Virus record (IMG/VR): IMGVR_UViG_3300028864_000110
Location: 1-21,178 of that record
Source of the DNA: a virus
Reading direction: 5' to 3' (one strand)
Length of the DNA stretch: 21,178 nt
Part shown: positions 1,512 to 17,408 of the stretch, one piece after another
How the letters are laid out: each line of letters opens with the position of its first letter
Position numbering within the stretch: position 1 is the stretch's first letter
Position numbers and translations under genes: made by a program
Notes under the pieces: generated by a model
Told to the model about the DNA's origin: nothing
Seen by the model: only the letters and a program-made list of their open reading frames with translations
Databases searched by the model: none

Positions 1512-1518
1512 ACTTGCT

Positions 1519-2346
1519 TTATTCAGAATAATTGTCTGTTACTTCCTTTTGTGCTTCTTTAATTTCATCCGGACTTGAACTTCGTGCCATATAAGGATGT
1601 TTATCCGGAAAAATAGATAATGTCTTACCTGGATTAAAACGGAACATAGCAGACTTGTTGACTCCATTTACCATATTGGTTGTAGCCTGTTCACCCAGTT
1701 GAATGGCATCCGTTGAATTTGAAAGCTCTGCACCTTCTTTGCCTACCTGAATCACCATACACCGGCAGTTCCAGTCAAGTGGTGGAACGTATTCATTCCA
1801 AAACGGATCATCCAAAGGAAGTGTGGTGTTATTTAATTCCTCATGATCGGCACGTACTTTGGCATCACCTGCAGTGCGGAACTGTAACAGGTAACGGCTG
1901 CCATCCTTTTCATAATCCTGCCACCGCGCTGCTGTTTGGGCTGACTGTTGAGCAAAATTATATTCAGCATTCAGGTAGTTCAGGTTGTATTCGTCATTGA
2001 TTACCTGAACGTCCAGTTTAAAGGCATCAAATGATTTTACTTCACCACTGTCAGTAATCAACAGTTCTGAGGCCTGTTGAAGTTCGTGGAATGTTTTCAT
2101 CCCTGAGAATACCCAGGTGTTTTGACGCAATGCTGCTATAACCGTTTCAGGTAATTCATACTTCAACGTTGCTGCAGCTATTCCCTTATCAATGCCAACA
2201 TACAGGATCCGGTTTATTTCGCCTATCAGCTCGGCAGGTGCGCCTTTAATAAGCTCTTTCGGTGTAATGCCCTTATTTTTATGTAGCCAGGCAACAGCAC
2301 GATCAAAAATAGCTGAATCGAAAGGAGGAATATCACCTTTAGCCAA
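1519..2346 (-). CDS. MuF-like minor head (head morphogenesis) protein
   Basis: 275 aa. The C-terminal half holds the MuF/SPP1 gp7-type region: YLLQFRTAGDAKVRADHEEL, then PLDDPFWNEYVPPLDWNCRC (about residues 178-197), with the conserved Trp-Asn-Cys-Arg-Cys. MuF proteins are minor capsid components that accompany the portal and assist head assembly or DNA entry. The frame is open back to a stop at 2440-2442 (minus strand), but that stretch holds no ATG. The best start is TTG at 2346, giving MAKGDIPPFD, which matches how homologues begin. The 68-bp gap from the portal stop holds a strong hairpin (2393-2415). The non-ATG start and the hairpin suggest low expression, as suits a minor head protein. 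Confidence 0.86.
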   Translation of the reverse strand: MAKGDIPPFDSAIFDRAVAWLHKNKGITPKELIKGAPAELIGEINRILYVGIDKGIAAATLKYELPETVIAALRQNTWVFSGMKTFHELQQASELLITDSGEVKSFDAFKLDVQVINDEYNLNYLNAEYNFAQQSAQTAARWQDYEKDGSRYLLQFRTAGDAKVRADHEELNNTTLPLDDPFWNEYVPPLDWNCRCMVIQVGKEGAELSNSTDAIQLGEQATTNMVNGVNKSAMFRFNPGKTLSIFPDKHPYMARSSSPDEIKEAQKEVTDNYSE

Positions 2347-2392
2347 CTGAACTGTCGACGTATTTGTATATAATTCAATTAATGCTTCGTGT

Positions 2393-2415
2393 AGCCCTGA
2401 GTAGTAGTCAGGGCT
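2393..2415 (-). promoter_or_regulatory. Hairpin between portal and MuF genes
   Basis: AGCCCTGA (2393-2400) and TCAGGGCT (2408-2415) form a perfect 8-bp stem with a 7-nt loop. On the minus strand it begins in the portal stop codon and lies about 47 nt before the TTG start of MuF. No U-tract follows on either strand, so it is more likely an RNA-stability or translation-control element than a terminator. Confidence 0.6.
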
Positions 2416-3674
2416 TATTGAAAAAAATTGAGTTTGGTTTTATCAGTTGGTTGAACTGGTGGTATTGGTGGAACAGGTGGTGTTGGTTTAGTCGGCTCTT
2501 TTTTACCTGTAATTTTTACATTGTATTTTTCATTGAAATACTCCTTATCAATTTCATAACCGGCATCTAATAACATCTTTTCGTATGCGATCTGTTCTGA
2601 AGGTGTATAATCAATGGAACTGTCCCAATCAAAACGAAGTCCTTTGACCGGGAATCCGTGCATGATCATAAATGGAATAAGCTTATTATTCACAAGGTCC
2701 CGGATAAAGTCGGCATCAGTTTCAATTACATTTTGTAAAATTTCTAAATGAACTTCTGACTGACTGCGTGAACTGCCGTTGTCAAGTGTCATAGTGGAAT
2801 TCAGAACTCCCTTTGACATTTCAGAGTTGGCACGTTCAATGCGTTTATCGTATACATTAAAAGCATCTCCTCTGGTTGTTTCCTTTATTTCAATTTCAGT
2901 GCCTTCAGGGAAAAGACCCCATGCAGCTGCACCCATATCAGACAACATTTTTTCGACCTTGGTAATTTCTTTTGCATCACGGCTGGTAGTTTTCCCTATC
3001 CGGATAGGCATGCCAAAAAGTTCACCAAATGCATCCCAAAAAGCAAGCATGTTTTTTTTACTGATTGCCTGAGGTGCCAATTTTAGGAATAATCCTAAAC
3101 TTTGAGGGTCTCCGGCTTCAATACACCATTTAGCCAGGTCACCTGAACGGTAATCAATGCCCATTGATGGAAGATCGCCAATTTCCTTTACGATAACTCC
3201 GTATTCTGGTGTGACATGTTTACGTGGAACGAGTGTTGTGTTTTGGAATTGAAGTTTATCATCTATTGTAACAATATCACCAAACTGAATGAGCGAGTGA
3301 CCCCAGTACGTTGAATCAAGTGCCAGGGAAATGAAATTTTTAAACCATTCGGCTTCGAATAGTTCAGTGATATCCTCCAGTTCTTTTTTAGACTTCTTAT
3401 CAACAAGTTTAAACGATTTACGTTGTACGAATTTTTTACGTTGACTTATGGCTCCTGTTAAGTGCAGGTCTATTTCTACGTCGGTATATACATCATACAA
3501 TCGGGCACGCCAGGGATGTTCTACATGGATGGCCTGTTGCCATGCTGCACGCCAATCACCAATGTCTTTTTTAGTAAGATATTGAGTTCGGTTAGCCAGT
3601 TCAATTATCATGGATTTAACGCGTTCCTGTTTCACGTTATCCATTGCCAGGAGCATCTCAGGAGTATAGTTCAT
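2415..3674 (-). CDS. Portal protein, DUF935 (Mu gp29) family
   Basis: 419 aa, in the usual range for DUF935 portals or slightly short. The protein forms the dodecameric ring at the capsid vertex that docks the terminase and the tail. Family-like stretches are DWRAAWQQAIHVEHPWRARL (about residues 41-60), TGAISQRKKFVQ, FGELFGMPIRIGKT (central), TTRGDAFNVYDKRIERANSE and the Ser/Arg loop TLDNGSSRSQSEVHLE (about 293-308). The C-terminus ends in a Pro-rich tail (PTKPTPPVPPIPPVQP), unusual beside the conserved core and possibly a flexible contact for MuF. The start ATG at 3674 follows a spacer of 7-bp repeats. It lies between DUF1320 and MuF genes in the packaging operon. Confidence 0.9.
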   Translation of the reverse strand: MNYTPEMLLAMDNVKQERVKSMIIELANRTQYLTKKDIGDWRAAWQQAIHVEHPWRARLYDVYTDVEIDLHLTGAISQRKKFVQRKSFKLVDKKSKKELEDITELFEAEWFKNFISLALDSTYWGHSLIQFGDIVTIDDKLQFQNTTLVPRKHVTPEYGVIVKEIGDLPSMGIDYRSGDLAKWCIEAGDPQSLGLFLKLAPQAISKKNMLAFWDAFGELFGMPIRIGKTTSRDAKEITKVEKMLSDMGAAAWGLFPEGTEIEIKETTRGDAFNVYDKRIERANSEMSKGVLNSTMTLDNGSSRSQSEVHLEILQNVIETDADFIRDLVNNKLIPFMIMHGFPVKGLRFDWDSSIDYTPSEQIAYEKMLLDAGYEIDKEYFNEKYNVKITGKKEPTKPTPPVPPIPPVQPTDKTKLNFFQ

Positions 3675-3678
3675 TATT

Positions 3679-3706
3679 GTTTGAAGTTTGAAGTTTAAAG
3701 TTTGAA
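3679..3706. repeat. Tandem heptamer repeat (4 copies) upstream of portal start
   Basis: Four consecutive 7-bp units: GTTTGAA, GTTTGAA, GTTTAAA, GTTTGAA (plus strand). They fill almost all of the gap between the DUF1320 stop (3708) and the portal start codon (3674, minus strand), so they lie in the portal's ribosome-binding leader. Confidence 0.9.
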
Positions 3707-3707
3707 G

Positions 3708-4127
3708 TTACCAGTCATTACGGTTTTTTGGAAGTGATCCGTATTTAATGTCACTTCCTATATCGGTACCGGTTGAATCAGTAAGAGGTGGAAGTTCAGG
3801 GGATGCTTTTCCTGCCTGTACATCTTTAAGACCGGAAATGGCACTTTTATAACGTGTTTCGCGTATTTCAAATCCCATCTTTTTTGGTAGCCAGGCAATG
3901 AGATTATAAAGTGTAATATCACAAGTGATCATTACAAGCCATGCGTTTCGATTATCATCAGTAGCAGCAAATGCGGTAGCTACATCGAAACGATTTCTAA
4001 GGTAAGAACTGATTTCTTCAATTGCGTATTTTTCCGCTTTTTGGCGTGTGAGTTCATCCGACTGTTGAATCACATCAAGTGTGACGGCATCGGTAACGGC
4101 TGTATAATCTTCTGAGGTTAAAAACAT
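3708..4127 (-). CDS. DUF1320 protein (Mu gp36-like head-tail connector)
   Basis: 139 aa with the start chosen here. It begins MFLTSEDYTAVTDAVTLDVI, then TRQKAEKYAIEEISSYLRNR (about residues 27-46) and the aromatic/Pro stretch YNLIAWLPKKMGFEIRETRY. This matches the DUF1320 family, whose Mu member gp36 belongs to the head-tail interface. The same frame continues upstream to an ATG at 4175, but the extra 16 residues are encoded by AT-rich heptamer repeats and overlap the preceding gene, so 4127 is the better start. In Mu the gp36 gene lies after the major capsid gene; here it is between the large terminase and the portal on the opposite strand. Confidence 0.83.
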   Translation of the reverse strand: MFLTSEDYTAVTDAVTLDVIQQSDELTRQKAEKYAIEEISSYLRNRFDVATAFAATDDNRNAWLVMITCDITLYNLIAWLPKKMGFEIRETRYKSAISGLKDVQAGKASPELPPLTDSTGTDIGSDIKYGSLPKNRNDW

Positions 4128-4133
4128 ATCATA

Positions 4134-4165
4134 ATTAGTGATTAGTGATAAATGATTAATGATTA
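4134..4165. repeat. Paired tandem heptamers upstream of the DUF1320 gene
   Basis: ATTAGTG twice (4134-4140, 4141-4147), four bases, then ATGATTA twice (4152-4158, 4159-4165). The block fills the gap between the small basic gene and the DUF1320 start at 4127 and just overlaps the former's stop codon. Confidence 0.85.
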
Positions 4166-4402
4166 TCGGGTGCAATAAAATGCCAGTTTTTCAATATCCT
4201 GAATTGTCAGACCTTTTGTAAAAGTACCTTCCTTAATCAGTTCTTTCAGGTTCTGCTTTGATTTGACAAGCGGACGGCCTTTATACCATAGGCAAAAGAA
4301 TTTAGCACCTGTTTTTTCAAACATCCAGTTAGCTTTTCGGATGGCACGCCTTGCTAAACGTTGACGTCTGCTATTTGCAAACCAAAAATAGATTTTTACC
4401 AT
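4163..4402 (-). CDS. Small basic phage protein of unknown function
   Basis: 79 aa, rich in Lys and Arg. It begins MVKIYFWFANSRRQRLARRA, then AIRKANWMFEKTGAKFFCLW and ends with a short helix, LTIQDIEKLAFYCTR. I recognise the pattern (AirkAn...TGxxxFv..., a basic middle, a C-terminal ...Y.T) from small proteins that recur in Bacteroidetes Mu-like prophages between packaging and neck genes, but no role is known to me. The charge suggests nucleic-acid or terminase contact, which is inference only. The start ATG at 4402 follows an 11-bp tandem duplication. Confidence 0.75.
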   Translation of the reverse strand: MVKIYFWFANSRRQRLARRAIRKANWMFEKTGAKFFCLWYKGRPLVKSKQNLKELIKEGTFTKGLTIQDIEKLAFYCTR

Positions 4403-4409
4403 TTTAATG

Positions 4410-4430
4410 TGTGTTTAAATTGTGTTTAAT
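4410..4430. repeat. 11-bp tandem duplication upstream of the small basic gene
   Basis: TGTGTTTAA occurs at 4410-4418 and 4421-4429, a period of 11 bp, a few bases before the minus-strand start codon at 4402. Confidence 0.75.
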
Positions 4431-4442
4431 CAATATTTAATA

Positions 4443-4463
4443 GGTCAACCACGAGGGTTTACC
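4443..4463 (-). other. Possible hairpin at the end of the large terminase gene
   Basis: GGTCAACC (4443-4450) and GGTTTACC (4456-4463) can pair with one mismatch around a 5-nt loop, directly after the terminase stop on the minus strand. There is no clean U-tract, so termination would be weak. It may only mark the gene boundary. Confidence 0.35.
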
Positions 4464-5999
4464 CTACCATGCATTTTTTGAAGATTGACGTCGGCCAACG
4501 GATGGTGAATATATCTCTGCCCTGGTACGTTTTTGAAGAATGTAAATAGCACCCTCATCAGCATCCGGAGCATCATCATGTGTCCGGCTTCCTTTTTCAA
4601 ATGATAAGGTCTGTTCAATACCGGTCAACATATCAGGGTCATTTTGCATTGCTTCATTATACCAGACAAAACCACGTTCCCATAATGGACTCACGCCTTC
4701 AACCCGTTGGAACTTTTCCGGTTTTTTACGCATGTCCGGACGGATAGGTAATTGATACCCGCGCAAATTACCTTCAGTAGTAAATTCGTCCAGGATAATA
4801 TCCTGAAGAAAATTAGCCTCCATGTAATAATCACAAATCACACCTTCCGGCATTGATTCGTGCAGATCGTAAAACCATCGTACCATTTCACCTGTGGAGC
4901 ATTGGCGAACGAAGGCTTTGATATGATGAAGCTCTGTTCCTACTTTACCCCACACTTTTATGGCTTTGTAGTCATTCTTGGTAGTTCCTTTAAAAGAAGG
5001 GTCACAATAGGCTACAATGCTTTCGTACTTATCCAGGCGTGGGAGTTTCTTCCAACGTATCCAGTCATTTTTAAAAACAGCACCCTCTGTAATGGGATTA
5101 TTCATGTATTCCTTTTGGAATGCCCGGTAACCCATAAAAAGCTCCTTTGCCTTGATACGTAACTCTGTCCAGAACTCAGGCCATGAAGGTTCACCCTTTG
5201 CATTGCGGACATTAATCCTTAATACATATACGCTTGCAATAGCAGCAATACGTGCCAGTACGGAGTTTTTACCTATCATGTTGCCAACCATAATAAAACG
5301 ACCACCCATAGGACCAAATGAACCGAATAAGGCTTCTTTTACCCAATCGACCATGTTGTTTACCCGGGCTTCATTTTCTACCAGTTCATCATCATCCAAG
5401 TCATCTATTGCAATATAGTCCGGACGGTTCTCTTTGTACCGGAGTCCACGGGGTGACTGTCCACGACCACGAGCAAAAAAAGCGCAATCATCTACTGTTA
5501 CAAACTCACCTTCTGTCCAGCTGCCAGCATTATATTGTTTACCAAAATCATTAATGTATCGTTGGTTGTATTGAAGTTCTGCCTGTACGTCGGATAGTAA
5601 AGTATTTGCATTGTCCTGGGATTTACCAACCAGAACCATCACGTTTATTTCACGTTTCTTTTGACATTTAAGCCAAAGCGGAATCATAATGTCCACATGG
5701 GTAGATTTAGCATGACCACGTGCCCAGATAAATGCTGCCTGAATGTCCCGGTTCTCTTTTAGCTTATTGGCTGCTTTGGTATGAAATTTCGCATTAGGAA
5801 TGACTTTCCCGGTTTCCTTATCGGTACAATAATGTGGAAAATAATAAGCAACAAAATAATCATAATCGTTACGAGCCTTATCAATACGACGTTGCTTATC
5901 AGCATTGGATTCTGATTTATTTATGGTAGTCTGATTTTGCACCGAGGTACAATGTTCCTTCCATATCCGTAATGCTTCTTTTTGTTCTGATAAAGTCAT
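4464..5999 (-). CDS. Terminase large subunit (packaging ATPase-nuclease)
   Basis: 511 aa, full length for a phage large terminase. The N-terminal ATPase domain has a deviant Walker A, RGHAKST (residues 94-100), preceded by AAFIWA, and a Walker B, YIAIDDLD (195-202). The coupling segment GGRFIMVGNMIGKNS lies at 232-246. The C-terminal RNase H-like nuclease starts IVAYCDPSFKGTTKNDYKA, with D333 as the likely first metal ligand, and ends with THDDAPDADEGAIYIL (about 474-489), where a late acidic ligand is expected. The protein drives ATP-dependent packaging at the portal and cuts the DNA. It is downstream of the small terminase, separated by a 36-bp gap that holds the 25-bp dispersed repeat. Confidence 0.95.
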   Translation of the reverse strand: MTLSEQKEALRIWKEHCTSVQNQTTINKSESNADKQRRIDKARNDYDYFVAYYFPHYCTDKETGKVIPNAKFHTKAANKLKENRDIQAAFIWARGHAKSTHVDIMIPLWLKCQKKREINVMVLVGKSQDNANTLLSDVQAELQYNQRYINDFGKQYNAGSWTEGEFVTVDDCAFFARGRGQSPRGLRYKENRPDYIAIDDLDDDELVENEARVNNMVDWVKEALFGSFGPMGGRFIMVGNMIGKNSVLARIAAIASVYVLRINVRNAKGEPSWPEFWTELRIKAKELFMGYRAFQKEYMNNPITEGAVFKNDWIRWKKLPRLDKYESIVAYCDPSFKGTTKNDYKAIKVWGKVGTELHHIKAFVRQCSTGEMVRWFYDLHESMPEGVICDYYMEANFLQDIILDEFTTEGNLRGYQLPIRPDMRKKPEKFQRVEGVSPLWERGFVWYNEAMQNDPDMLTGIEQTLSFEKGSRTHDDAPDADEGAIYILQKRTRAEIYSPSVGRRQSSKNAW

Positions 6000-6011
6000 A
6001 ACTGGGTCTTA

Positions 6012-6036
6012 ACATCCCCTTTAGGGGCTTGGGGTT
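6012..6036 (-). repeat. 25-bp dispersed repeat, copy 1
   Basis: A GC-rich element with core CCCCTTTAGGGG followed by CTTGGGG, inside an AT-rich genome. It occupies the gap between the small terminase stop and the large terminase start. Its exact reverse complement is at 13856-13880. The core can fold as a CCCC/GGGG hairpin with a 4-nt loop, like a REP-type element. I recall similar CCCCTAAAGGGG-type intergenic elements in Bacteroidetes genomes, but a genome count is needed to confirm that. Confidence 0.9.
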
Positions 6037-6500
6037 TATTTCGTTAAGTGTTCAGAGATATAAAGATCCTGGTACTTATTAATGGCTTTCACTAGTTCCG
6101 GAGTAACTTCTGAGTCGAATGACTGTCGGTACTGGATCCATTTTCCAAAAGCCATAAATACCTCAATAGCATCTACAATATTGGCCTTTTTGTCCAGCTT
6201 TTCAATGACACTTGCAAACTTGGAAAGCTTATCCCCTAATCCGGCAAGTACAACAGGATTCTTTTCTGTATTAGCCTGTTCAATTAGATTGTTTACTGCC
6301 GTCAACAACTTATTGACTAATTCGGGTCGGGTGATATTAGCAGCTGCTTTGGTTGCTGCCCAGTTGCCCAGTTCTACCCACTTACTCATTGTAACGGCAC
6401 TTACTCCTACCTTCTCTGCAATACTTTTTTGAGCATCACCTTGCAGGTAAAGTATGCGTGCAAATTCTTTCTTTTTCTCCAGTTCTTTTTTTGTGGACAT
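6036..6500 (-). CDS. Terminase small subunit (HTH, DUF1804-like)
   Basis: 154 aa, first gene of the minus-strand operon. After a Lys/Glu-rich lead, a helix-turn-helix is visible: FARILYLQGDAQKSIAEKVG then VSAVTMSKWVELGNW (about residues 13-47), the recruit-and-bind module of small terminases. The remainder (about 55-150) looks all-helical (VNKLLTAVNNLIEQ, LGDKLSKFASVIEKLDKKAN), consistent with an oligomerisation domain. It would recognise phage DNA and feed it to the large subunit encoded next. The leader toward 6501-6689 holds the candidate operon promoter. A Mu gp27-type function is inferred from position and the HTH; a transcriptional regulator is a weaker alternative. Confidence 0.82.
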   Translation of the reverse strand: MSTKKELEKKKEFARILYLQGDAQKSIAEKVGVSAVTMSKWVELGNWAATKAAANITRPELVNKLLTAVNNLIEQANTEKNPVVLAGLGDKLSKFASVIEKLDKKANIVDAIEVFMAFGKWIQYRQSFDSEVTPELVKAINKYQDLYISEHLTK

Positions 6501-6689: not shown

Positions 6690-7640
6690 ATGAATTACGA
6701 TGTTCTTATTTCAAACTCAAAACTGAACTGCTTTGGCTTTCGGGTATTGACTTCGGGTATTGATATGGTTCAATTTGAAAAGAACCCTATCATGCTATTT
6801 ATGCATAACAGGCCTTTTGGTCGTGATACGGATGGGATGCTTCCAATTGGTACAGTTATCAATCTGAGAATTGAAAATGATGATTTAATGGGAACGTTGA
6901 ATTTTGACGAAGTTGATGACTTCAGCAAACAAATTAAAGCAAAATGGGATGCCGGTACTTTGCGTATGGTAAGTCCGGGACTTGATCCGAAAGAACGGAG
7001 TGAAGATCCTGCTTATTTATTACCTGGTCAAAAGTATGCCACTGTAACAAAGAGCAAACTTCTTGAAATTAGCGTGGTGGATATGGGTGGTAACGATGAT
7101 GCCCTGGCTTTGTATGCTGATGGAAAACTAATAACACTATCACTGGGTGGAGACAATGAATTTTTAAAACCTATAAATATTATTAATCAAAACGACGAAT
7201 CAATGAAATCAATCGCATTGTTTTTGGGACTGCCGGAAACGGCAACCGAAGCCGAAATACTGGCAAAAGTTACATCAATCAAGTTGGCATCCGACAAAGT
7301 AACTTCGTTGGAAGCGGAAGCTGCAACACAACGTGATCTGGCCATTACTACGGAAGTAGAAGCTGCTATTACGCTTAAAAAGGTAACTGCAGATAAAAAG
7401 GATCATTTTATCACCCTTGGTAAAACTTCCGGACTGGAAGTACTGAAAACTACCCTGGAGTTAATGGTACCATCCAAAAAACCAACCGACGTGATCAACC
7501 TGAATTCAAAAGGTGAAGTTGTAGAGTTCAAGAAACTGAGTGAAGTCCCTGAAGCCGAATTGTTGCTTATGCGCGAAAACGATAAGGACACTTATTGCAA
7601 GCTTTTTAAGGCTGAATACGGCACGGAGATTACTCTTTAA
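6690..7640 (+). CDS. Prohead protease fused to scaffold (Mu gpI-like)
   Basis: 316 aa. The N-terminal half is a serine protease of the HK97-like prohead class: FMHNRPFG contains the likely catalytic His39, and LLEISVVDMGGNDDA the likely nucleophile Ser128. LRMVSPGLDP (91-100) lies between them. After about residue 170 the sequence becomes helical and charged (IKLASDKVTSLEAEAATQRD), and TEVEAAITLKKVTADKKDHF resembles the C-terminal part of Mu gpI, which doubles as scaffold. The protein ends LFKAEYGTEITL. It processes scaffold and probably capsid in the prohead. It is the first plus-strand gene from the divergent promoter region, 61 bp before the MCP gene. Met172 may start a separate scaffold. 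Confidence 0.9.
   Translation: MNYDVLISNSKLNCFGFRVLTSGIDMVQFEKNPIMLFMHNRPFGRDTDGMLPIGTVINLRIENDDLMGTLNFDEVDDFSKQIKAKWDAGTLRMVSPGLDPKERSEDPAYLLPGQKYATVTKSKLLEISVVDMGGNDDALALYADGKLITLSLGGDNEFLKPINIINQNDESMKSIALFLGLPETATEAEILAKVTSIKLASDKVTSLEAEAATQRDLAITTEVEAAITLKKVTADKKDHFITLGKTSGLEVLKTTLELMVPSKKPTDVINLNSKGEVVEFKKLSEVPEAELLLMRENDKDTYCKLFKAEYGTEITL
7203..7640 (+). CDS. Possible internally initiated scaffold protein (Mu gpZ-like)
   Basis: An in-frame ATG (Met172 of the protease gene) begins MKSIALFLGLPETATEAEIL, exactly where the protease domain ends and the helical scaffold region starts. The product would be 145 aa. In Mu, scaffold Z is made from an internal start in the I protease gene, giving a shared C-terminus. 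The upstream sequence is A/T-rich (AATCAAAACGACGAATCA), compatible with Bacteroidota initiation but not diagnostic. Proposed by analogy; the alternative is that scaffold arises only by self-cleavage. Confidence 0.45.
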   Translation: MKSIALFLGLPETATEAEILAKVTSIKLASDKVTSLEAEAATQRDLAITTEVEAAITLKKVTADKKDHFITLGKTSGLEVLKTTLELMVPSKKPTDVINLNSKGEVVEFKKLSEVPEAELLLMRENDKDTYCKLFKAEYGTEITL

Positions 7641-7701
7641 AAGGTGGTCTGTAGAAAGTAGTAAAAACAAGTAATTTAAAAACAATCCAATTTATAAAAC
7701 A

Positions 7702-8760
7702 ATGAAAAAAATATTAGTGTTTTGCCTGGCCTTATTGGTCAATTTCTTTGCCGGAGGCGTAATGTTCGCAGCCGTTGGTATTGCGCCTGTCATAGGTGGG
7801 TTAATTTTTAATGGGGTTGCCATTGTGTCACCTTTATTTGGTGCTCCGATAGGTGCATTTCGTGCAACAATTTTCACTGAGGTTTGGACAGGTGAAATGA
7901 TAAAAGCTTTCCGTAATTCCATGGAGTCAATTGGGTGGATTAGTAGAATACGTGATTATAGCCAGTATGCTAAAAATGATGTCATTCACTTTGTAGACCT
8001 TGGTGGCGATCCAACAGTATTAATCAATAACACATCATATCCATTGGAAATTGAAACCTTATCGGACACCGATAAACCTATCGGACTGGATAAATATCAA
8101 ACTAAACCAAGCCGTATAACCGATGACGAACTGAATGCCATCTCCTACGATAAAATGGGATCGGTGATTGAACGTCACAGTGAAGCAATTAACCAAACAA
8201 AATATGCACGTGCATTACATGCATTGTCACCTAATAGTGACGCTGCCGGTACTCCGGTATTGCTAACAACCGGTGCTACGGCTCCTGAAGGTGGACGTAA
8301 AATGTTGCTTCGTGCAGATATAATCGCGTTAAAAAAGAAATTTGATACGATGAAGGTTCCGGTTGCCGGGCGATGCCTGGTACTTTGTGCTGATCATATT
8401 AATGACTTGCTTCAAAGCGATCAAAAATTTGTGGAACAATACCACAATTATACCACCGGTAAGATTGCTAATCTGTTCTCATTCGAAGTATTTGAATATA
8501 CCGATAGTCCTTATTATGTAGTAGCAGCCAAAACAAAACTGGCTTATGGTTCCGTACCTGGTGTAACACATCGTCAGGCTTCTATTGCCTTCTTTGCTCC
8601 ACAAATGATGAAAGCAACAGGTACAACTAAATCATATTTCAGTGCAGCTGTTGATCACCCTGAAACACAGGAAAACCTTGCCAATTTCCGCACCTATTTT
8701 ATTTGTCTTCCACTAAGGAATCAGGCAATTGGTGCCATTGTCAGCGATATCGTTGCGTAG
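7702..8760 (+). CDS. Major capsid protein with signal-like N-terminus
   Basis: 352 aa. Residues from about 58 on match the Mu-like Bacteroidetes major capsid: FTEVWTGEMIKAFRNSMESI (58-77), NDVIHFVDLGGDP, then VLINNTSYPLEI. Near the C-terminus, TRQ-type residues are replaced by VTHRQASIAFFAPQMMKATG and YFICLPLRNQAIGAIVSD. Placement after the protease-scaffold gene fits. The N-terminus is odd: MKK followed by hydrophobic residues 4-47 (ILVFCLALLVNFFAGGVMFA and onward), which looks like a secretion signal plus a second hydrophobic helix. The A-rich leader before ATG 7702 supports this start. The segment may be a prodomain removed by the protease. A strong hairpin follows the stop. Confidence 0.9.
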   Translation: MKKILVFCLALLVNFFAGGVMFAAVGIAPVIGGLIFNGVAIVSPLFGAPIGAFRATIFTEVWTGEMIKAFRNSMESIGWISRIRDYSQYAKNDVIHFVDLGGDPTVLINNTSYPLEIETLSDTDKPIGLDKYQTKPSRITDDELNAISYDKMGSVIERHSEAINQTKYARALHALSPNSDAAGTPVLLTTGATAPEGGRKMLLRADIIALKKKFDTMKVPVAGRCLVLCADHINDLLQSDQKFVEQYHNYTTGKIANLFSFEVFEYTDSPYYVVAAKTKLAYGSVPGVTHRQASIAFFAPQMMKATGTTKSYFSAAVDHPETQENLANFRTYFICLPLRNQAIGAIVSDIVA

Positions 8761-8770
8761 TTATTAATTA

Positions 8771-8798
8771 GTAACCGGTTGTCATAATAACCGGTTAC
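8771..8798 (+). promoter_or_regulatory. 10-bp hairpin just after the major capsid gene
   Basis: GTAACCGGTT (8771-8780) and AACCGGTTAC (8789-8798) form a perfect 10-bp stem with an 8-nt loop, 10 bp past the MCP stop. The following bases (ATTAAACACA) are not a U-tract, so it is probably a partial terminator or a 3'-end stabiliser that keeps MCP mRNA abundant relative to downstream genes. Confidence 0.75.
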
Positions 8799-8815
8799 AT
8801 TAAACACATACAAAA

Positions 8816-9211
8816 ATGACTAATAAAGAAAATAGTGAAGATCTAAAAGTGACTCCTGTAAAAACAGGTGAAGTTACTCCTGAAAAAGTTATTGAACAGG
8901 TTCCTGAAAAAGAAGTTGAGAAAGTTCCTGAAAAAGAAGTTCCTGAAAAGGAAGTTACTGAAAAGGAAGTAGAGAAAACACCGGAAACTGAAATAGAACA
9001 AGAGTTACCTGTTTTCCCTGCAGTGTCAAAAGTTGAAGCAAGCAATACATCAAAGTTTTATGATGAATCGGAATCTCTTTTTAAAGACTATCCGGATGCA
9101 ATTGCGTTCCACTTTACAAGTGACGGCCTCGCCTTTTTTCAACATACCGATGCCAGGAACCATGCCTCTACATTAGAGGACAAAGAAGTTATTTCAAAAG
9201 TACGTCAATAA
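8816..9211 (+). CDS. Capsid-adjacent protein with Val-Pro-Glu-Lys repeats
   Basis: 131 aa in two parts. Residues about 12-65 are a low-complexity acidic/basic linker made of VPEKEVEK-type units (EKVPEKEVPEKEVTEKEVEK). Residues about 75-131 form a compact domain: FYDESESLFKDYPDAIAFHF, then TSDGLAFFQHTDARNHASTL. The TSDGxAF...A.NHA pattern is one I recognise from proteins encoded right after the major capsid gene in Bacteroidetes phages, where Mu has gp35. A capsid-associated or decoration role is plausible but unproven. The repeat encodes an extended, probably disordered arm and could vary in length between relatives by slippage. Confidence 0.7.
   Translation: MTNKENSEDLKVTPVKTGEVTPEKVIEQVPEKEVEKVPEKEVPEKEVTEKEVEKTPETEIEQELPVFPAVSKVEASNTSKFYDESESLFKDYPDAIAFHFTSDGLAFFQHTDARNHASTLEDKEVISKVRQ
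8900..8985 (+). repeat. Imperfect coding repeat (Val-Pro-Glu-Lys units)
   Basis: Variants of GTTCCTGAAAAAGAAGTT recur in tandem with changing A/G third positions, encoding VPEKEVEK, VPEKE, VPEKE, VTEKE and VEKTPE. This is in-frame low-complexity expansion inside the capsid-adjacent gene. Confidence 0.8.
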
Positions 9212-9242
9212 ACCATTTCCGTGTGTGTTCAACGTTTCGGGA

Positions 9243-9266
9243 TACCGGCAGCTCTTACCGCCGGTA
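9243..9266 (+). other. Hairpin upstream of the tail sheath gene
   Basis: TACCGGC (9243-9249) and GCCGGTA (9260-9266) form a 7-bp GC-rich stem with a 10-nt loop in the 92-bp gap before the sheath start. No U-tract follows. It may be an mRNA processing or stability element at a segment boundary. Confidence 0.5.
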
Positions 9267-9303
9267 CCGGAACAATGGACAACGGGAAAATTAAAAAAAC
9301 AAT

Positions 9304-10500
9304 ATGTTACCACGCGTAAAAATATATTTTGAAAACGGAGCTTTAGGCAGTTCCACGCCATCCGATGATGCCGTGGTAGGATTATTGGCCTCCGGTGTGG
9401 CAGTAACGGGTAAGTTTGTTCCTGGAACATCATACCTTATTACCTCACCTGATGGATTGACCAAGTTAGGTATTACTTCCGCTGTGAACGATGTAAATGC
9501 ATTGATATTTAAAACGGTTGATGAATTCTATACAGAAGCTCCCATTGGTACTAAATTATGGATATTAGCAGCTGTTAATACCTTATCTATGTCCGACCTG
9601 GTTGATAGTACAAAAACGTATGCAAAAACGCTTATTAATGCAGCAAATGGAGCTATTAACTTCATTATGGTTGCCAAAAGTGATGCAATTGCGTATGTTC
9701 CTGTAGTTACTACCGGAATGGATTCGGATGTTGCCCTGGCTATTACCAACGCCCAGGCATTAGGTGAATGGGCTACTGAAACTAAATATGCTCCGCTGTT
9801 TACCATTTTGCCCGGAAGACATTATACCGGAACGGCATCAGCTCTTACCGATCTGGCTCTCGCAGCTAATAACCGGGTTTGTGTGATAATTGGTGACACG
9901 GTAAGTGGCAGCAAGGATGCATCGGTTGGCTTAATGGCAGGTCGTATAGCTGCTATTCCGGTACAACGATCTATTGCACGTGTAAAAACGGGTGCTATCC
10001 CTGTAAACTCAATGTTTATTGGAGCTATAGCTGCTGAACTGGGTGATCCTGATATTATAAACGATAAAGGGTATGTCACCTTCCGCACATTTGTAGGGAA
10101 AGCCGGGTATTACTTTACGGATGATAAACTGGCCACTGATCCAACTGATGACTATGCATTAATCCCAAGACGTCGTGTTATTGACAAGGCTTACCGGATC
10201 GGATATAAAACAATGGTAAACGAATTGAGCAACGAGGTTCCGGTGACGGACTCAGGTTCTATTCCTGCTCCGATTGTAAAAAGTATTCAGAATGCAGTTG
10301 AAGTTGCCATTGAAACAAATATGAACGGCAACCTGGGAGTTGATCCTGGCAATCCAAAAGATACCGGCGTTCAGTGTTTTATTGATGCTTCACAAAACAT
10401 TGTCAGTTCTTCGACATTGATCGCATCGCTTAAGGTTAAACCTTTCGGATATTCAAAGTACATTGATTTGTACCTGGGCTTTAAAACAACAACTGTATAA
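9304..10500 (+). CDS. Tail sheath protein, DUF2586 family
   Basis: 398 aa. This is the contractile sheath subunit that surrounds the tail tube. The N-terminal MLPRVKIYFENGALGSSTPS, the Rossmann-like segments (LWILAAVNTLSMSDLV, INFIMVAKSD) and the C-terminal region with YALIPRRRVIDKAYRIGYKT (about residues 280-299), then a long helix with SIQNAVEVAIETNMNGN, match DUF2586, the sheath family of Bacteroidetes Mu-like phages. The last ~30 residues end in a beta-rich KVKPFGYSKYIDLYLGFKTT, the strand-swapping type of C-terminus that links sheath subunits. The tube gene follows after 13 bp, the standard sheath-tube order. The presence of a sheath makes this a myovirus-type particle. Confidence 0.9.
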   Translation: MLPRVKIYFENGALGSSTPSDDAVVGLLASGVAVTGKFVPGTSYLITSPDGLTKLGITSAVNDVNALIFKTVDEFYTEAPIGTKLWILAAVNTLSMSDLVDSTKTYAKTLINAANGAINFIMVAKSDAIAYVPVVTTGMDSDVALAITNAQALGEWATETKYAPLFTILPGRHYTGTASALTDLALAANNRVCVIIGDTVSGSKDASVGLMAGRIAAIPVQRSIARVKTGAIPVNSMFIGAIAAELGDPDIINDKGYVTFRTFVGKAGYYFTDDKLATDPTDDYALIPRRRVIDKAYRIGYKTMVNELSNEVPVTDSGSIPAPIVKSIQNAVEVAIETNMNGNLGVDPGNPKDTGVQCFIDASQNIVSSSTLIASLKVKPFGYSKYIDLYLGFKTTTV

Positions 10501-10513
10501 TCATTTTAAAAAC

Positions 10514-10930
10514 ATGTTTGATTCAAGAGAATACGAATTTGCTGACTTAACCCTGGTGTTAGGTGGCAAGGATATCACAGGTTTCCGTGGTATCAAATAC
10601 ACTACCAAACAGGAAAAGGAAGTGGTGTACGGTAAAGGGAATGAGCCATTGAAAATTCAGAAAGGCAATAAGAGCCATGAGGGTGAACTTACTATCTTGC
10701 AGAGTGAATATGAAACCTTGGTGGCTAATAGTGCCGATGGTTCATTATTATCACTTCAACTGGATGCGGTAGTTGCGTATGGTAATCCCGGTAACGGTGA
10801 TATGCTGATTACGGATATTTTGCAAGGCCTTCAGTTTACTGAAGAAAGCAAAGAAGTAAAACAGGGTGACAAATTTATGGAGTGCAAACTTCCATTTATA
10901 TTTTTGAGAAAGAAAGCTCAAACGATTTAA
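10514..10930 (+). CDS. Tail tube protein
   Basis: 138 aa from ATG 10514; a longer reading from 10463 would overlap the sheath gene and adds no homologous sequence. It begins MFDSREYEFADLTLVLGGKD, with ITGFRGIKYTTKQEKEVVYG (about residues 21-40), IQKGNKSHEGELTILQSEYE and TDILQGLQFTEESKEVKQGD later. Alternating beta-strands and the x-x-GxxKSxxGELTIxxxE pattern match the tube proteins of this phage group. It would form stacked hexameric rings inside the sheath. A very strong intrinsic terminator follows, as often seen after abundant structural genes. Confidence 0.88.
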   Translation: MFDSREYEFADLTLVLGGKDITGFRGIKYTTKQEKEVVYGKGNEPLKIQKGNKSHEGELTILQSEYETLVANSADGSLLSLQLDAVVAYGNPGNGDMLITDILQGLQFTEESKEVKQGDKFMECKLPFIFLRKKAQTI

Positions 10931-10953
10931 AACCTATAAAATTAATGACTAAC

Positions 10954-10994
10954 AAAAGCAGTCGGTCAATAGCTGGCTGACTGCTTTTATTTTA
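10954..10994 (+). terminator. Intrinsic terminator after the tail tube gene
   Basis: AAAAGCAGTC (10954-10963) pairs perfectly with GACTGCTTTT (10979-10988). The inner bases GGTCA/TGGCT extend the stem to about 15 bp with two G-U pairs and a 5-nt loop. TTTTATTTT follows. It sits 23 bp past the tube stop and 24 bp before the next start codon. Confidence 0.9.
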
Positions 10995-11017
10995 AAAACA
11001 AAATAATAACACACACA

Positions 11018-11326
11018 ATGGAAAAAGAATTAATAGGACAGGCAACTCCTGAACAAATTGCCGAATGGAAAGCAAAAAATAAAAATGTATTTGCAGTTAC
11101 CGTTGATGGTCATATTGCTTATTTAAAAAGTCCTGATCGTAAAACATTATCGTACGCTACTGTTGCCGGCACAAAAGACGCCCTTAAATTCAATGAAGTA
11201 TTGATTAATGGCTGCTGGTTAGGAGGTAGTGAAAACATCAAAACAGATGATGACTTGTTTTATGCAGTTGGAAAGCAACTTGTTGAAATAATCCAGGTAA
11301 AAGAAGCTGAACTCGTAAAGTTATAG
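11018..11326 (+). CDS. Tail assembly chaperone, short (frame-0) form
   Basis: 102 aa. It begins MEKELIGQATPEQIAEWKAK, with AVTVDGHIAYLKSPDRKTLS (about residues 26-45), then FNEVLINGCWLGGSENIKTD (58-77), and ends VKEAELVKL. This is the pattern of the small protein encoded between tube and tape measure in Bacteroidetes Mu-like phages, equivalent to Mu gp41 and lambda G. These chaperones coat the tape measure before tube polymerisation. The stop TAG at 11324 sits directly after the slip site for a -1 frameshift that makes a 156-aa long form. It is the first gene after the strong terminator. Confidence 0.85.
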   Translation: MEKELIGQATPEQIAEWKAKNKNVFAVTVDGHIAYLKSPDRKTLSYATVAGTKDALKFNEVLINGCWLGGSENIKTDDDLFYAVGKQLVEIIQVKEAELVKL

Positions 11327-11349
11327 AGGAAGGTGTTGTGCAACCTTCC
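11314..11349 (+). promoter_or_regulatory. Programmed -1 ribosomal frameshift signal
   Basis: The shift must lie between the -1-frame stop TGA (11308-11310) and the frame-0 stop TAG (11324-11326). Within it CGTAAAG (11314-11320) offers A AAG, on which tRNA-Lys can slip back to AAA. It is the A-site half of lambda's GGGAAAG. Seven nt later GGAAGGT (11328-11334) pairs with ACCTTCC (11343-11349), loop 8 nt, giving a 7-bp stimulatory hairpin. The nearby stop also favours slippage. Confidence 0.78.
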
Positions 11350-11487
11350 GAATGGATAAGAAAAATTAATGCACAATTACGGTATTACCTCCATCTCGAT
11401 CCGGACCTGCTGACGGATATACAATGGGCAAATGCCTGGAAAGAGTTGGAGTGGATACGTGAAGAGGAAGCGAAAGCCAATAAATGA
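11318..11487 (+). CDS. -1 frameshift extension of the tail assembly chaperone (gpGT-like)
   Basis: A second open frame, -1 to the chaperone, runs from the slip codon AAG (11318-11320) to TGA at 11485-11487 and adds 55 residues: VIEEGVVQPSEWIRKINAQL onward to the acidic end WIREEEAKANK. It has no start codon of its own at its beginning and fills the gap to the tape measure. The fusion (frame 0 to Lys101, then this) would be 156 aa, as in lambda G-GT and Mu gp41/42. The aromatic stretch RYYLHLDPDLLTDIQWANAW resembles what I know of the T-part in related phages. Confidence 0.82.
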
Positions 11488-11523
11488 TTTACACATATTA
11501 AGAATAGATTTACATAGATAATA

Positions 11524-13221
11524 ATGGCAAATATATACGAATACATCATAAAGCTAAATGCCCGTATGGACGGTATAGTTGCTGCTAATAAGGGATTGCA
11601 ACGAACTGACCAACTTGCACATGCTGCCCAGGCATCAGCTAATGGTTTGAGTGGCGCATTTAGTAAAGTAGGTGGTGTATTGGGTGCCATGGGAATTGGT
11701 TTTGGCATGTTTCAGGTAGTGAATATGATGAAACAAGGCGTTGAAAAATCTCATGAGCTTCATCTGGCACAGGCACAATTACAGGCCGGACTTATCAGTA
11801 CCGGGAATGCTGCCGGAATTACGATGCAGAGTATTGATGCCATTGCTTCAAAAATAAGTGCAAATTCTTTAAGTAGCCGCGCTGATGTTCTTTCAATGCA
11901 GTCTATCCTATTGACTTTTCCCAATGTATCAAAACAAACATTTGGGGCAGCATCACAAGCCATTGCAGACATGAGTACCCGTATGAAAACGGATATGAGT
12001 TCAACAGCTTTACAAGTTGGTAAAGCTCTTCAAGATCCTATCCTTGGTATAACAGCCTTACGTCGTGCAGGTGTAAACTTCAATGGTGAACAAAAAGAAC
12101 TGATTAAAAGCCTTGTAAAAGGGGGTAATATGGCAGCTGCCCAGACTATGATTTTGACGGAACTTAACAAAGAGTTTGGAGGATCGGCCAAAGCAGCTTA
12201 TGATGCTACTCCTATGGCACATTATAATAAGGCAATCGGTAAAATAATGTTATCAGTTGGTGATCTTGGTATTAAGATTCAGGAAAAATTAGTTCCATCG
12301 TTGGAAATCTTTGCTGATAACTTTAAATCTACTCTTTCGGTTGGAATTCAGTTTGTAAAATCATTATACGATATAAAAGATGTCTTATTGATTCTAGGAG
12401 GTGGATTTGCTGCATATAATATTATACTTGGAGCTGTAGCACTTAAAACGGCTGTATTAACATGGTATACCGGATTATCAACAGCTGCTATCATTGTCAA
12501 CACGTTGGTTACTGAAGGATGGGCTGCTGCCATGGTAGCTGTCAATATAGCCATGTCTGCTAACCCTATTGGTTTTATAATTGCATTAATAGCTTTGTTG
12601 GTTGCAGGGATAGTTTATTGTTATAATCGGTTTGGATGGTTTCGTGGTGCTATTTTGGGTGCATGGGAAGCAATTAAAGGTTTTGGAAATATTATTAAAG
12701 AATTTATAATTGATCGGATTGTTGGAATACTTTCGGGTCTGGGTGGATTAGGTAAGGCACTGGTTCAGTTTTTTAAAGGTGACTGGAAAGCTGCCTGGGC
12801 AACCGCCAATCAGGCAAGTAAAGATCTTATTGGTTTTGGTGCAGTTGGAAATGCAATAAATAACGCCAAAGAAGTTGGTAAGAACATTGGAGCAGCCTAT
12901 CATCAGGGAGTTTCTGAGATAGATGCAAAGAATAAAGCCGGAATAAAGAATAGTGATAAGGCAGGAATTAAAACAGCTACCGTTCCAGGGCTTGGAGTTG
13001 TGGGTGCAGGTGGAACCGGTGGAGGTGCAGCAGCTACAAAAGCAGGAACAGAAAAAGTAGCTACCGGTGGAACCCGCAATACATCTATTACTATTAATCT
13101 GGGTAAAATGGTGGAAAGTATCATTTTTCAGGGAGGTGTAAAAGAGAATGAAAAAGATTTAGTGAGTCAGGTAGAAGCAGCTTTGTTGAGAGTGCTGTAT
13201 TCGGCACAGTCGGCTTCTTAA
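11524..13221 (+). CDS. Tail tape measure protein
   Basis: 565 aa, short for a tape measure and implying a short contractile tail if the usual length-to-residue relation holds. The N-terminus is amphipathic (MANIYEYIIKLNARMDGIVA), followed by Ala/Gly-rich helices with SKISANSLSSRADVLSMQSI (about residues 117-136) and ADMSTRMKTDMSSTALQVGK. A hydrophobic centre spans about 285-370 and includes ANPIGFIIALIALLVAGIVY, a hallmark of tape measures. A Gly-rich linker (GVVGAGGTGGGAAATKAG) near 495 leads to a small C-terminal domain (ITINLGKMVESIIFQGG). It lies directly after the chaperone pair, the invariant order. Confidence 0.93.
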   Translation: MANIYEYIIKLNARMDGIVAANKGLQRTDQLAHAAQASANGLSGAFSKVGGVLGAMGIGFGMFQVVNMMKQGVEKSHELHLAQAQLQAGLISTGNAAGITMQSIDAIASKISANSLSSRADVLSMQSILLTFPNVSKQTFGAASQAIADMSTRMKTDMSSTALQVGKALQDPILGITALRRAGVNFNGEQKELIKSLVKGGNMAAAQTMILTELNKEFGGSAKAAYDATPMAHYNKAIGKIMLSVGDLGIKIQEKLVPSLEIFADNFKSTLSVGIQFVKSLYDIKDVLLILGGGFAAYNIILGAVALKTAVLTWYTGLSTAAIIVNTLVTEGWAAAMVAVNIAMSANPIGFIIALIALLVAGIVYCYNRFGWFRGAILGAWEAIKGFGNIIKEFIIDRIVGILSGLGGLGKALVQFFKGDWKAAWATANQASKDLIGFGAVGNAINNAKEVGKNIGAAYHQGVSEIDAKNKAGIKNSDKAGIKTATVPGLGVVGAGGTGGGAAATKAGTEKVATGGTRNTSITINLGKMVESIIFQGGVKENEKDLVSQVEAALLRVLYSAQSAS

Positions 13222-13254
13222 ATAAAATTATACGTAATAAAATAAATTACACGA

Positions 13255-13854
13255 ATGTTTGACCCAATAAGAGATTTAAACGAAGCAACAAATATAGCAC
13301 TCATAACACAAAATGCCCTTGGGTTTGCTATGCCTCCGTTTATTCCTTTCAGGGATACGGTAATAGTACGCGGGTCGGAGGATGTGGAAGCGTCGGCAGA
13401 ACTGACAAGCCGTATAAATTCGGGATTTGTTGAAAATACAAACTGGGTAGTTCCATTATCATTTCAAATTGATGGATTAACTGATTTCGATTTTCCGGTG
13501 GATCCAATCATTTCATTATCCAGTAAAAATATTATTACACGCCGGTATGTAAATAAGTCAACAAAGCGTGGATCAATTAAAGAACACTGGAGTCAGGATG
13601 ATTGGGAAATTACAATTACAGGAATTATCATAGAACCGGATACTGATTTTATGGAAAACATACTACTTGAATTGCGTAAATATTTAAACAGTTCAAAGTC
13701 AATATCTGTAAAATGCCCGGTATTTAATCAAATGGATATATTACGGATTGCCATTGAAACATACGACTTTCCATTTACAAAAGGAGTGGAGAATCAGGCA
13801 TTCATAATTAAAGCTTTCAGCGATGAAGATTATGACCTTTTAATAAAGAATTAA
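13255..13854 (+). CDS. DUF6046-like tail/baseplate protein
   Basis: 199 aa. Notable stretches are FRDTVIVRGSEDVEASAELT, TRRYVNKSTKRGSIKEHWSQ (about residues 96-115), DDWEITITGIIIEPDTDF (116-133) and a final IKAFSDEDYDLLIKN. The RGSIKEhWsqDDWeItItG segment is what I associate with the Bacteroidetes family DUF6046. It occupies the place of Mu gp43-type (tube initiator / DNA-circularisation-family) proteins between tape measure and hub. A role in starting the tube on the baseplate is inferred from position. The following gap carries the second 25-bp repeat. Confidence 0.7.
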   Translation: MFDPIRDLNEATNIALITQNALGFAMPPFIPFRDTVIVRGSEDVEASAELTSRINSGFVENTNWVVPLSFQIDGLTDFDFPVDPIISLSSKNIITRRYVNKSTKRGSIKEHWSQDDWEITITGIIIEPDTDFMENILLELRKYLNSSKSISVKCPVFNQMDILRIAIETYDFPFTKGVENQAFIIKAFSDEDYDLLIKN

Positions 13855-13855
13855 T

Positions 13856-13880
13856 AACCCCAAGCCCCTAAAGGGGATGT
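13856..13880 (+). repeat. 25-bp dispersed repeat, copy 2 (inverted)
   Basis: Exact reverse complement of 6012-6036, with core CCCCTAAAGGGG preceded by CCCCAAG. It begins two bases after the DUF6046 stop and lies in the gap before the hub gene. As in copy 1, the element sits between a stop and the next start and interrupts no gene. Confidence 0.9.
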
Positions 13881-13888
13881 AATAAATG

Positions 13889-13909
13889 GGATTTAAATAG
13901 GATTTAAAT
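13889..13909 (+). repeat. 11-bp tandem duplication upstream of the hub gene
   Basis: GGATTTAAAT at 13889-13898 and again at 13900-13909, period 11 bp. Each contains the palindrome ATTTAAAT. It ends one base before the ATG at 13911. Confidence 0.85.
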
Positions 13910-13910
13910 T

Positions 13911-14867
13911 ATGTTTAAACTGTCGTGGAAGGTCACTATTGGAACTTATCAGTTGGGAATGATTGAAAGCATTGAAACAATTCGAAGTGTCGAATTATTG
14001 AGTGATACGGCAACCATTACTTTACCTTCGGCAGTTTATAATATCCCTTTTGATATTAATGATAAGATTAAACGTGGTGATGCTGTAAAGATTGAATTCG
14101 GATATGATGATAAGTTTATAACTGAATTTGAGGGTTACCTTCAACAAGAACCGGCAACTGATAATGGATCTCTAATACTAAAATGCGAAGATGGTCTTTT
14201 CCAATACAGGAAATCGCTTGATAACATTGAACTTAAAAATGTAAGCGTAAGTGATGTTCTGAATTACGTGAATGGTAAAATAGGTGGATTTACACTGAGT
14301 TGCGATTATGAATTTAAGTATGACAAATTCGTGATCAACAATGCAACCGGTTATGATGTACTAAAAAAAATACAGGAGGAAGCAAAGCCGAATATCTATT
14401 TAAAAGGAAATATACTGCATGTTCATCCTCAATACTCTGAGATATTTGGTAAAGTAAAATACGATTTTTCAAAGAATATTGAAACTGCAGAACTAAAGTA
14501 TTTAAAGAAAGAAGATCGAAAGGTTATTGTCTCAATTGAATATCCCGGTAAAGATGGTAAACTACATAAAATAGAGTTTGGAGATACCGGTGGTGAACGA
14601 ATTGACAGAAAAGGTGGAACCGGTGATTTGGATAGTTTAATGCTTCAGGCCAAAAACGAATATGTAAGTCGGGTATATGATGGTTATGAAGGAACATTTA
14701 CCGGTTGGTTAGTTCCGTATTGTGATGCCGGGTACCAGGTTAAATTGGTAGATGAGGATTACCAGGATAAAACCGGTAATTATTATGTATTGGAAGTAAA
14801 AACAAATTTCTCAAAATCCGGAGGAGTAAGAACGATTAAAATCGGTAAAAAGTTGAGTGATGGCTAA
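13911..14867 (+). CDS. Baseplate hub protein, late control gene D / Mu gp44-like
   Basis: 318 aa. The N-terminal beta domain (FKLSWKVTIGTYQLGMIESI, then SDTATITLPSA) is followed by DKIKRGDAVKIEFGYDDKFI and TEFEGYLQQEPATDNGSLIL, the first barrel of gpD/gp27-type hubs. The middle has VSDVLNYVNGKIGGFTLSCD and VLKKIQEEAKPNIYLKGNIL (about residues 154-173). The C-terminal part (YDGYEGTFTGWLVPYCDAGY, then NYYVLEVKTNFSKSGGVRTI) is the second barrel. The hub trimer adapts the tail tube to the spike encoded next, and the two genes overlap by 8 bp (14860-14867). Confidence 0.88.
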   Translation: MFKLSWKVTIGTYQLGMIESIETIRSVELLSDTATITLPSAVYNIPFDINDKIKRGDAVKIEFGYDDKFITEFEGYLQQEPATDNGSLILKCEDGLFQYRKSLDNIELKNVSVSDVLNYVNGKIGGFTLSCDYEFKYDKFVINNATGYDVLKKIQEEAKPNIYLKGNILHVHPQYSEIFGKVKYDFSKNIETAELKYLKKEDRKVIVSIEYPGKDGKLHKIEFGDTGGERIDRKGGTGDLDSLMLQAKNEYVSRVYDGYEGTFTGWLVPYCDAGYQVKLVDEDYQDKTGNYYVLEVKTNFSKSGGVRTIKIGKKLSDG

Positions 14868-15357: not shown

Positions 15358-15674
15358 TGAGCAAAAAGATAGGCATACAACTAACAGGTGATCTGGAACT
15401 GGCAATTAATCCGGTTCGCGATAGTTCCGGACTGATCGTGTCAGGGATAACAGTTGGTGATACGCTTTATCAGAATCAATACATGATCCTGAATGCTCAA
15501 AAGGGTGAGTTTAAAGAGAATCCTACGCTTGGTGTGGGTATTAACGATATGGCAAACGATGATGACCTGAACGAATGGAAAAAGGCCATACGTGAAGAGT
15601 TTGCAAAGGATGGACTAAAAGTGGATAAATTAAGTATAACTACTTCCGGTATGGAGGTAAAAGCAGATTACTAA
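15357..15674 (+). CDS. Baseplate wedge protein (gp25 / gpW / Mu gp46-like)
   Basis: 105 aa. The first half (IGIQLTGDLELAINPVRDSS, LYQNQYMILNAQKGEFKENP) is followed by TLGVGINDMANDDDLNEWKK (about residues 57-76) and AIREEFAKDGLKVDKLSI. The ENPxxGvG...L...ir.ef..DGl.v..l pattern is that of the gp25-like wedge family, which starts sheath polymerisation on the baseplate. Its position directly after the spike gene follows the standard order. The J-like gene, which normally comes next, is displaced by the lysis cassette. Confidence 0.87.
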   Translation: MSKKIGIQLTGDLELAINPVRDSSGLIVSGITVGDTLYQNQYMILNAQKGEFKENPTLGVGINDMANDDDLNEWKKAIREEFAKDGLKVDKLSITTSGMEVKADY

Positions 15675-15675
15675 T

Positions 15676-16370: not shown

Positions 16371-16371
16371 A

Positions 16372-16788: not shown

Positions 16789-16789
16789 T

Positions 16790-17368: not shown

Positions 17369-17408
17369 TATCTACAGGATCCCCACGAATAAACAATAAA
17401 AAAGTATC

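Follow-up and report, generated by a model that had tools for sequence, protein, structure and literature searches.

The N-terminal propeptide of an HK97-fold capsid protein is regarded as a scaffold that is tied to its own core. In HK97 gp5 and T5 pb8 it takes the form of a long, charged, helical delta-domain, the T5 protein being cleaved near residue 159. The propeptide of T4 gp23 comprises 65 residues and is removed by the prohead protease; to our knowledge, it has not been described as a membrane hairpin. T7-type coats are unprocessed. Within HK97-fold proheads, the N-terminal presequence faces inward. Proheads of T4 start on the inner membrane, where the portal rather than the major capsid protein is located (PMC9958956).

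In 2023, a signal-like N-terminus was noted on a capsid protein of a Porphyromonas phage, one that is unrelated to the protein studied here and lies next to a prohead protease, and its removal by the protease was proposed (PMC10367356). The nearest named phages of the locus considered here are members of the Winoviridae, such as Peternella_1 and pippi8-1. The available parts of two papers on the Winoviridae (PMC8776804, PMC7077304) make no mention of a hydrophobic capsid N-terminus, and full-text searches of a literature collection found no description of one for this capsid protein family. The present analysis concerns a 21,178-base virus record, which as a whole is referred to as the window, and the hydrophobic N-terminal segment of its major capsid protein (MCP), referred to as the lead.

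The capsid protein and its fold

The MCP precursor is encoded on the plus strand at 7702..8760 (352 aa), and its product begins MKKILVFCLALLVNFFAGGVMFAAVGIAPVIGGLIFNGVAIVSPLFGAPIGAFRATIFTEVWTGEMIKAF. Profile searches matched it to PHROG 267, 'major head protein' (E 6e-34), and to PF25209 with a score above the family cutoff. Sequence relatives of the core, identified by profile matches, include the capsid protein of cyanophage A4 (9jwb, E 2.4e-14) and T7 gp10A (E 2.5e-4). An AlphaFold2 model built from 52 family sequences has a mean pLDDT of 81.8 and supersedes an earlier one, from 15 sequences, that was poor in the core. It contains a hairpin of two helices (residues 2–24 and 29–42), a linker at residues 47–56 with pLDDT <50, and then an HK97-fold core. 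The best structural matches are the T7-like HRP29 procapsid (Z 16.0), T7, T5 prohead II, A4, encapsulins and P22, with Z of 14–16 for the HRP29, T7, T5, A4 and P22 capsids. These matches begin at model residue 49–76 and run to 352; none of them covers the lead. Fold and sequence agree that the core is an HK97-fold, T7-like MCP, which confirms the role given to this reading frame in the first-pass annotation. Some MCPs of the family have an extra C-terminal domain resembling BACON (L026:3001-4311, L044:685-2004; Pfam E 0.002, below cutoff), and a BACON-like domain is likewise annotated on the hankyphage capsid protein, which is unrelated to this family.

The hydrophobic lead

The N-terminus consists of MKK and then about 50 uncharged hydrophobic residues, the first 47 residues being encoded at 7702-7842. 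Helix 1 of the lead (residues 2–24, plus strand, 7705..7773) has an Eisenberg hydrophobicity of ~0.8 and a moment of ~0.13; helix 2 (residues 29–42, plus strand, 7786..7827) is followed by hydrophobic sequence to about residue 46. The best 19-residue Kyte–Doolittle mean is 2.48 in the lead versus 1.32 in the core. Lysine and arginine are absent over 50 residues, with KK before the hydrophobic stretch and R54 after it. Across ~70 distinct leads of the family, mean hydrophobicity and moment are 0.76 and 0.10 for helix 1, and 0.62 and 0.15 for helix 2. The median K/R-free stretch of the leads is 50 residues, and the N-tail has a mean of 2.3 K/R. In the hairpin group, K/R follows the hydrophobic stretch in 72% of leads and is missing in 28%. 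Judged by composition, the lead helices are of the membrane type and non-amphipathic, with positive charges at both outer ends as in a membrane hairpin, and both the helix statistics and the placement of charge are consistent with membrane insertion. Leads of the Peternella type are shorter and contain a single strongly hydrophobic segment, a second segment being weaker. Behind the first helix of these leads (L035, L132-L143) there is a recurrent SHA-F/GHA-F motif that resembles a signal peptidase site.

An incorrect start codon or other annotation artefact can be ruled out: M1 is the first ATG in frame behind a stop codon, and purifying selection acts on the lead. Among close relatives, dN/dS is ~0.1–0.35 in the lead and ~0.04–0.1 in the core, which indicates weaker selection on the lead. 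As a control, eight capsid proteins of the PF05065 family, from the same class of hosts, were inspected; their N-termini are charged, with a maximum of 0.17–0.64 over the first 120 residues. The lead is thus unlike the charged delta-domains of PF05065 capsids, in line with the contrast that had been noted from the window alone. Together with hankyphage, whose capsid protein has no detectable similarity to this family and no lead, these controls also rule out a general trait of Bacteroidetes capsid proteins.

Lead-bearing and bare relatives

Relatives of the MCP were collected from viral contigs, genomes and phage records, giving 108 distinct family members. A lead was defined as at least 30 residues with a 19-residue mean hydropathy >1.5, and a protein was called bare when it had 14 or fewer residues ahead of the core. 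By this definition 82 of the 108 carry a lead. The MKK start, hydrophobic run and second helix reported in the first-pass annotation match the window sequence exactly. The remaining 26 are bare, with Met directly at the core (e.g. MAGLNQEIW...), and the 108 include no intermediates. In bare reading frames, a stop codon lies 1–21 codons 5' of the Met. In the immediate neighbourhoods examined, no separate gene for a lead was found beside bare capsid genes.

It had been suggested that related Bacteroidetes Mu-like phages share the lead. Peternella_1, pippi8-1 and many prophages do, but the 26 bare members and hankyphage do not. A set of capsid proteins from Porphyromonas phages (e.g. phage012a) adds more bare members to the family. 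A start at a later Met, named in the first-pass annotation as evidence against a conserved lead, is true of the 26 bare proteins, but lead-bearing sisters coexist with them, which makes the lead an optional module and not an annotation error. Because bare relatives have otherwise the same core, the core can function without it. On the core tree, 11 changes between lead-bearing and bare states are needed, at least seven of them forced by starred (well-supported) branches, with long branches making the exact number unsure.

The junction between lead and core

The junction in the window MCP is G51-A-F-R-A55-T56-I57 (plus strand, 7852..7872), largely within the linker of pLDDT <50. The corresponding logo is G-[AS]-L-x-A-G-[VIL] in leads versus M-A-G-L in bare proteins, whose N-termini are MAGLNQEIW, MAGINQEIW or MALQTEIW. 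Near relatives with leads read LFT-GLNQEIW (L127), AME-GINQEIW (L129), ALAN-ALNQQIW (L121) and SLAFALQTEVW (L145) at the same place, and a more distant one reads LCE-GLNREIW (L114). Numbering back from the core Glu in 55 distinct hairpin-type leads, we found G at -9 in 40, L at -7 in 39, A at -5 in 33, G at -4 in 39, and V, I or L at -3 in all 55. In bare forms, position -6 is M and -5 is A, and G is frequent at -4, so that A-G at -5/-4 is common to both. A Met is retained at -6 in six leads and at -5 in two; these eight homologues, whose Met coincides with the bare start position or adjoins it, hint at in-frame fusion of leads onto old start codons.

The first-pass annotation had pointed to FAA (residues 22–24) as a cleavage-like motif. 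This motif is not conserved, being missing from L026 and L031, and the conserved boundary lies near residue 55. The likely cut site of the window MCP is therefore placed at about A55|T56 and not at FAA-24, with a predicted mature N-terminus of TIFTEVWTGEMIK (residue 56) or ATIFTEVWTGEMIK. The predicted mature protein, T56-A352 (plus strand, 7867..8757), has the T7-like HK97 fold and a mass of 32,985, compared with 38,548 for the precursor. The junction motif is short and conserved, borders a region that changes faster, and has L at P3 and A/E at P1, and in this it resembles a prohead-protease site; those of SPN3US and phiKZ are A-x-E and S-x-E (PMC5694885). The likeness between junction residues of lead-bearing and bare proteins is evident in the alignments, and from it we infer cleavage by a protease, in which case the lead would probably be cut off before the virion is finished. 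A dual translation start that yields a short MCP is ruled out for the window: up to residue 66, start-type in-frame codons occur only at 6, 12, 21, 42 and 66, so there is none at the junction, and the nearest are 42 and 66.

Exchange of leads between cores

Several pairs of proteins have leads that are much more alike than their cores. The leads of L129 and L148 are 63% identical over 43 residues on cores that are 27% identical; the values are 47% and 26% for L121 and L148, and 42% and 31% for L127 and L114. Shuffled-lead z-scores for such cross-clade matches are ~10–11. Conversely, unrelated leads are found on cores that are 57% identical (L121 and L127) and even 76% identical (L112 and L113), the latter pair suggesting a recent exchange. 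Given that leads ordinarily evolve more quickly than cores, retention of ancestral leads explains the cross-clade likeness poorly, and exchange explains it better. The proteases closest to those of L121, L129 and L127 come from bare sister phages (52%, 52% and 49%), not from relatives of the lead donors, which rules out joint transfer of lead and protease in these three cases. Together with the core tree, these sequence comparisons establish that phages of the family gain, lose and swap the lead independently of core and protease.

The upstream protease and gene neighbourhood

Directly upstream of the MCP gene, as had been described from the window, lies a plus-strand gene (6690..7640) for a prohead-protease-like protein with a C-terminal scaffold-like part. 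It matches PHROG 80/328, head maturation protease, and shows weak S78/HK97-type and Mu-I-type family matches (PF10123, PF04586, TIGR01543). It is the candidate cutter of the lead. An internal ATG of this ORF (MKSIALFLGLPETATEAE...) opens the scaffold-like part, and a possible nested scaffold would run from M172 (MKSIALFLGLPE...; plus strand, 7203..7640). In L112, L044 and L070, separate or shorter upstream ORFs start at this segment or close to it. In having a scaffold-like segment that starts inside or beside the protease ORF, the locus is like the Mu I/Z arrangement.

Proteases also accompany bare MCPs, so the presence of a protease does not track the lead. A tie between the lead and one protease type is ruled out, HK97/S78-like and ClpP-like neighbours occurring both with and without leads, although this typing is approximate, because the scaffold part that the two types have in common is picked up by either model.

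The head module lies on two strands. A minus-strand block beside the MCP encodes terminase, portal and a MuF-like protein (430-6500), and protease, capsid and tail genes are on the plus strand (6690-21075), including a DUF2586 tail sheath identified by its family match (9304-10500, plus strand). Hankyphage has the same order and so, to the extent examined, does Peternella_1. Between the capsid and sheath genes, 8816-9211 encodes a 131-aa protein with PEKEV/PEKEVEK repeats and no family match.

A possible membrane-insertion prodomain

For a lead that is conserved, under selection, hydrophobic, optional and swapped, with a precise junction to the core, our preferred reading is that MCP residues 1 to ~55 form a removable, exchangeable N-terminal membrane-hairpin prodomain, which the upstream protease would cut off. 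We consider this somewhat more probable than its negation, its removal at about A55|T56 and its membrane location both being deduced from sequence. The hairpin would be recognised while leaving the ribosome and would insert into the inner membrane of the host, its two ends lying in the cytoplasm, a topology suggested by the hydrophobicity, the low amphipathicity, and the lysines before and arginine after the stretch. The HK97-fold core would remain in the cytoplasm, so that capsid protein would accumulate at the membrane or be retained on it. Cleavage at the conserved G-x-L-x-A|G junction by the prohead protease encoded just upstream would then yield an N-terminus equal to that which lead-less relatives obtain from their start codon. 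A lead that works with any core and protease would more likely have a partner outside the head, for example the host membrane, than be a packed scaffold.

The most serious rival is a soluble hydrophobic delta-domain, in which the hairpins of each capsomer would pack inside the prohead as a scaffold and then be digested, and the membrane would not be involved. We regard it as unlikely, though worth real weight. The lead occupies the same chain position as the T5 delta-domain, followed by a linker of low model confidence in a phage that has a protease. The inward-facing N-termini of HK97-fold shells, and the single-span Peternella leads, speak against a simple tether. It would be geometrically difficult to anchor all the subunits of a closed shell in a membrane, so a membrane-bound lead must be cut before closure, nucleate only a few subunits, or surround enclosed lipid; Peternella-type leads with one strong span would also differ in topology from the hairpin type. 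Against a packed scaffold, the helices are non-amphipathic with hydrophobicity at the membrane level, a scaffold should co-evolve with its core and yet leads swap between cores 25–31% identical, and the upstream protease ORF already has a scaffold-like part. This last part would need processing in any case, which counts against the prodomain reading, as do the proteases that accompany bare MCPs and the 28% of hairpin-group leads with no positive charge behind the hydrophobic stretch.

Other readings fare worse. It is quite improbable that the lead is kept as part of the capsid floor; nothing speaks for this directly, although some HK97-fold coats such as T7 are unprocessed, and it fits poorly with bare relatives that have otherwise the same core, with the very low confidence of the linker, and with a conserved junction motif edging an otherwise faster-changing region. 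The cut hairpins might also stay in the capsid, leave it together with the DNA and make a pore in the membrane of the next host. A hydrophobic hairpin rich in small residues and the exchange of leads would suit such a role, but 26 relatives manage without a lead, and we give this reading very little credence. Export of the capsid protein, whole or in part, by a true Sec signal peptide is scarcely credible. The positive n-region (MKK) and hydrophobic h-region are those of a signal, and FAA, like SHA-F/GHA-F in Peternella relatives, resembles a peptidase site; however, the A-x-A is not conserved, the main group has a second hydrophobic helix instead of a single segment, and the conserved boundary lies ~30 residues further on. 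Moreover, the filling of proheads with DNA has to take place in the cytoplasm, which makes export implausible for a DNA-packaging shell. The signal-like N-terminus of the first-pass annotation is hence not a classical one.

If the membrane-hairpin prodomain is correct, a wider picture can tentatively be drawn, which we hold to be possible but doubtful. A whole family of tailed phages would make its MCP as an inner-membrane protein by way of an exchangeable transmembrane hairpin, building proheads on or partly around the membrane and freeing them by proteolysis, and sisters with the same core and protease would have dropped the tether. A membrane-like, optional lead that is swapped between distant cores behaves as a targeting tag rather than a scaffold. 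Sister phages with and without it offer a natural experiment on where tailed-phage heads assemble and on a membrane stage of the MCP. There is also a practical risk, since automatic annotation would call lead-bearing MCPs secreted.

Comparison with known systems

The closest described phages are the Winoviridae (Peternella_1, pippi8-1, FPSV-S27), Mu-like phages of Flavobacteriia, which have a homologous MCP, a DUF2586 sheath and the same module order. Their MCPs belong to the same family and have hydrophobic leads too, although those of Peternella look single-span; they are 25–35% identical to the window MCP, with Peternella_1 at 35%. The capsid protein of BK068098, likely of the Nixviridae type, begins MKFSQMLMAVLTALGFVNKAKA; the Q-rule and HicAB genes that BK068098 carries are ascribed to Nixviridae (PMC10367356). 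This protein (L166:12242-14248, 668 aa) has one short hydrophobic stretch and then a charged region, and it has no similarity to the window MCP. Capsid N-termini that look like signals may thus have evolved on more than one occasion among Bacteroidetes phages. For hankyphage, whose capsid protein is unrelated, the part of a proteomics paper available to us does not mention processing of the capsid protein (PMC12135933).

T7 gp10A and cyanophage A4 are sequence relatives of the core, and an E-V-W-T-G-E helix is common to 9jwb and the window MCP, but neither has a match to the hydrophobic lead. The T4 gp23 propeptide is of similar length to the lead. The parallel with T4 assembly drawn in the first-pass annotation is a loose one: its proheads do start on the inner membrane, but the link comes from the portal gp20 with gp40 and YidC, unlike the lead on the MCP that is proposed here. 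HK97 gp5 and T5 pb8 are alike in having an N-terminal extension ahead of an HK97-fold core and an adjacent protease gene. Residue 170 of T5 prohead II aligns with model residue 55, which places the lead where T5 has its removed delta-domain. In contrast to these long, charged scaffolds, the lead has ~55 residues and is helical but uncharged, hydrophobic, optional and exchangeable.
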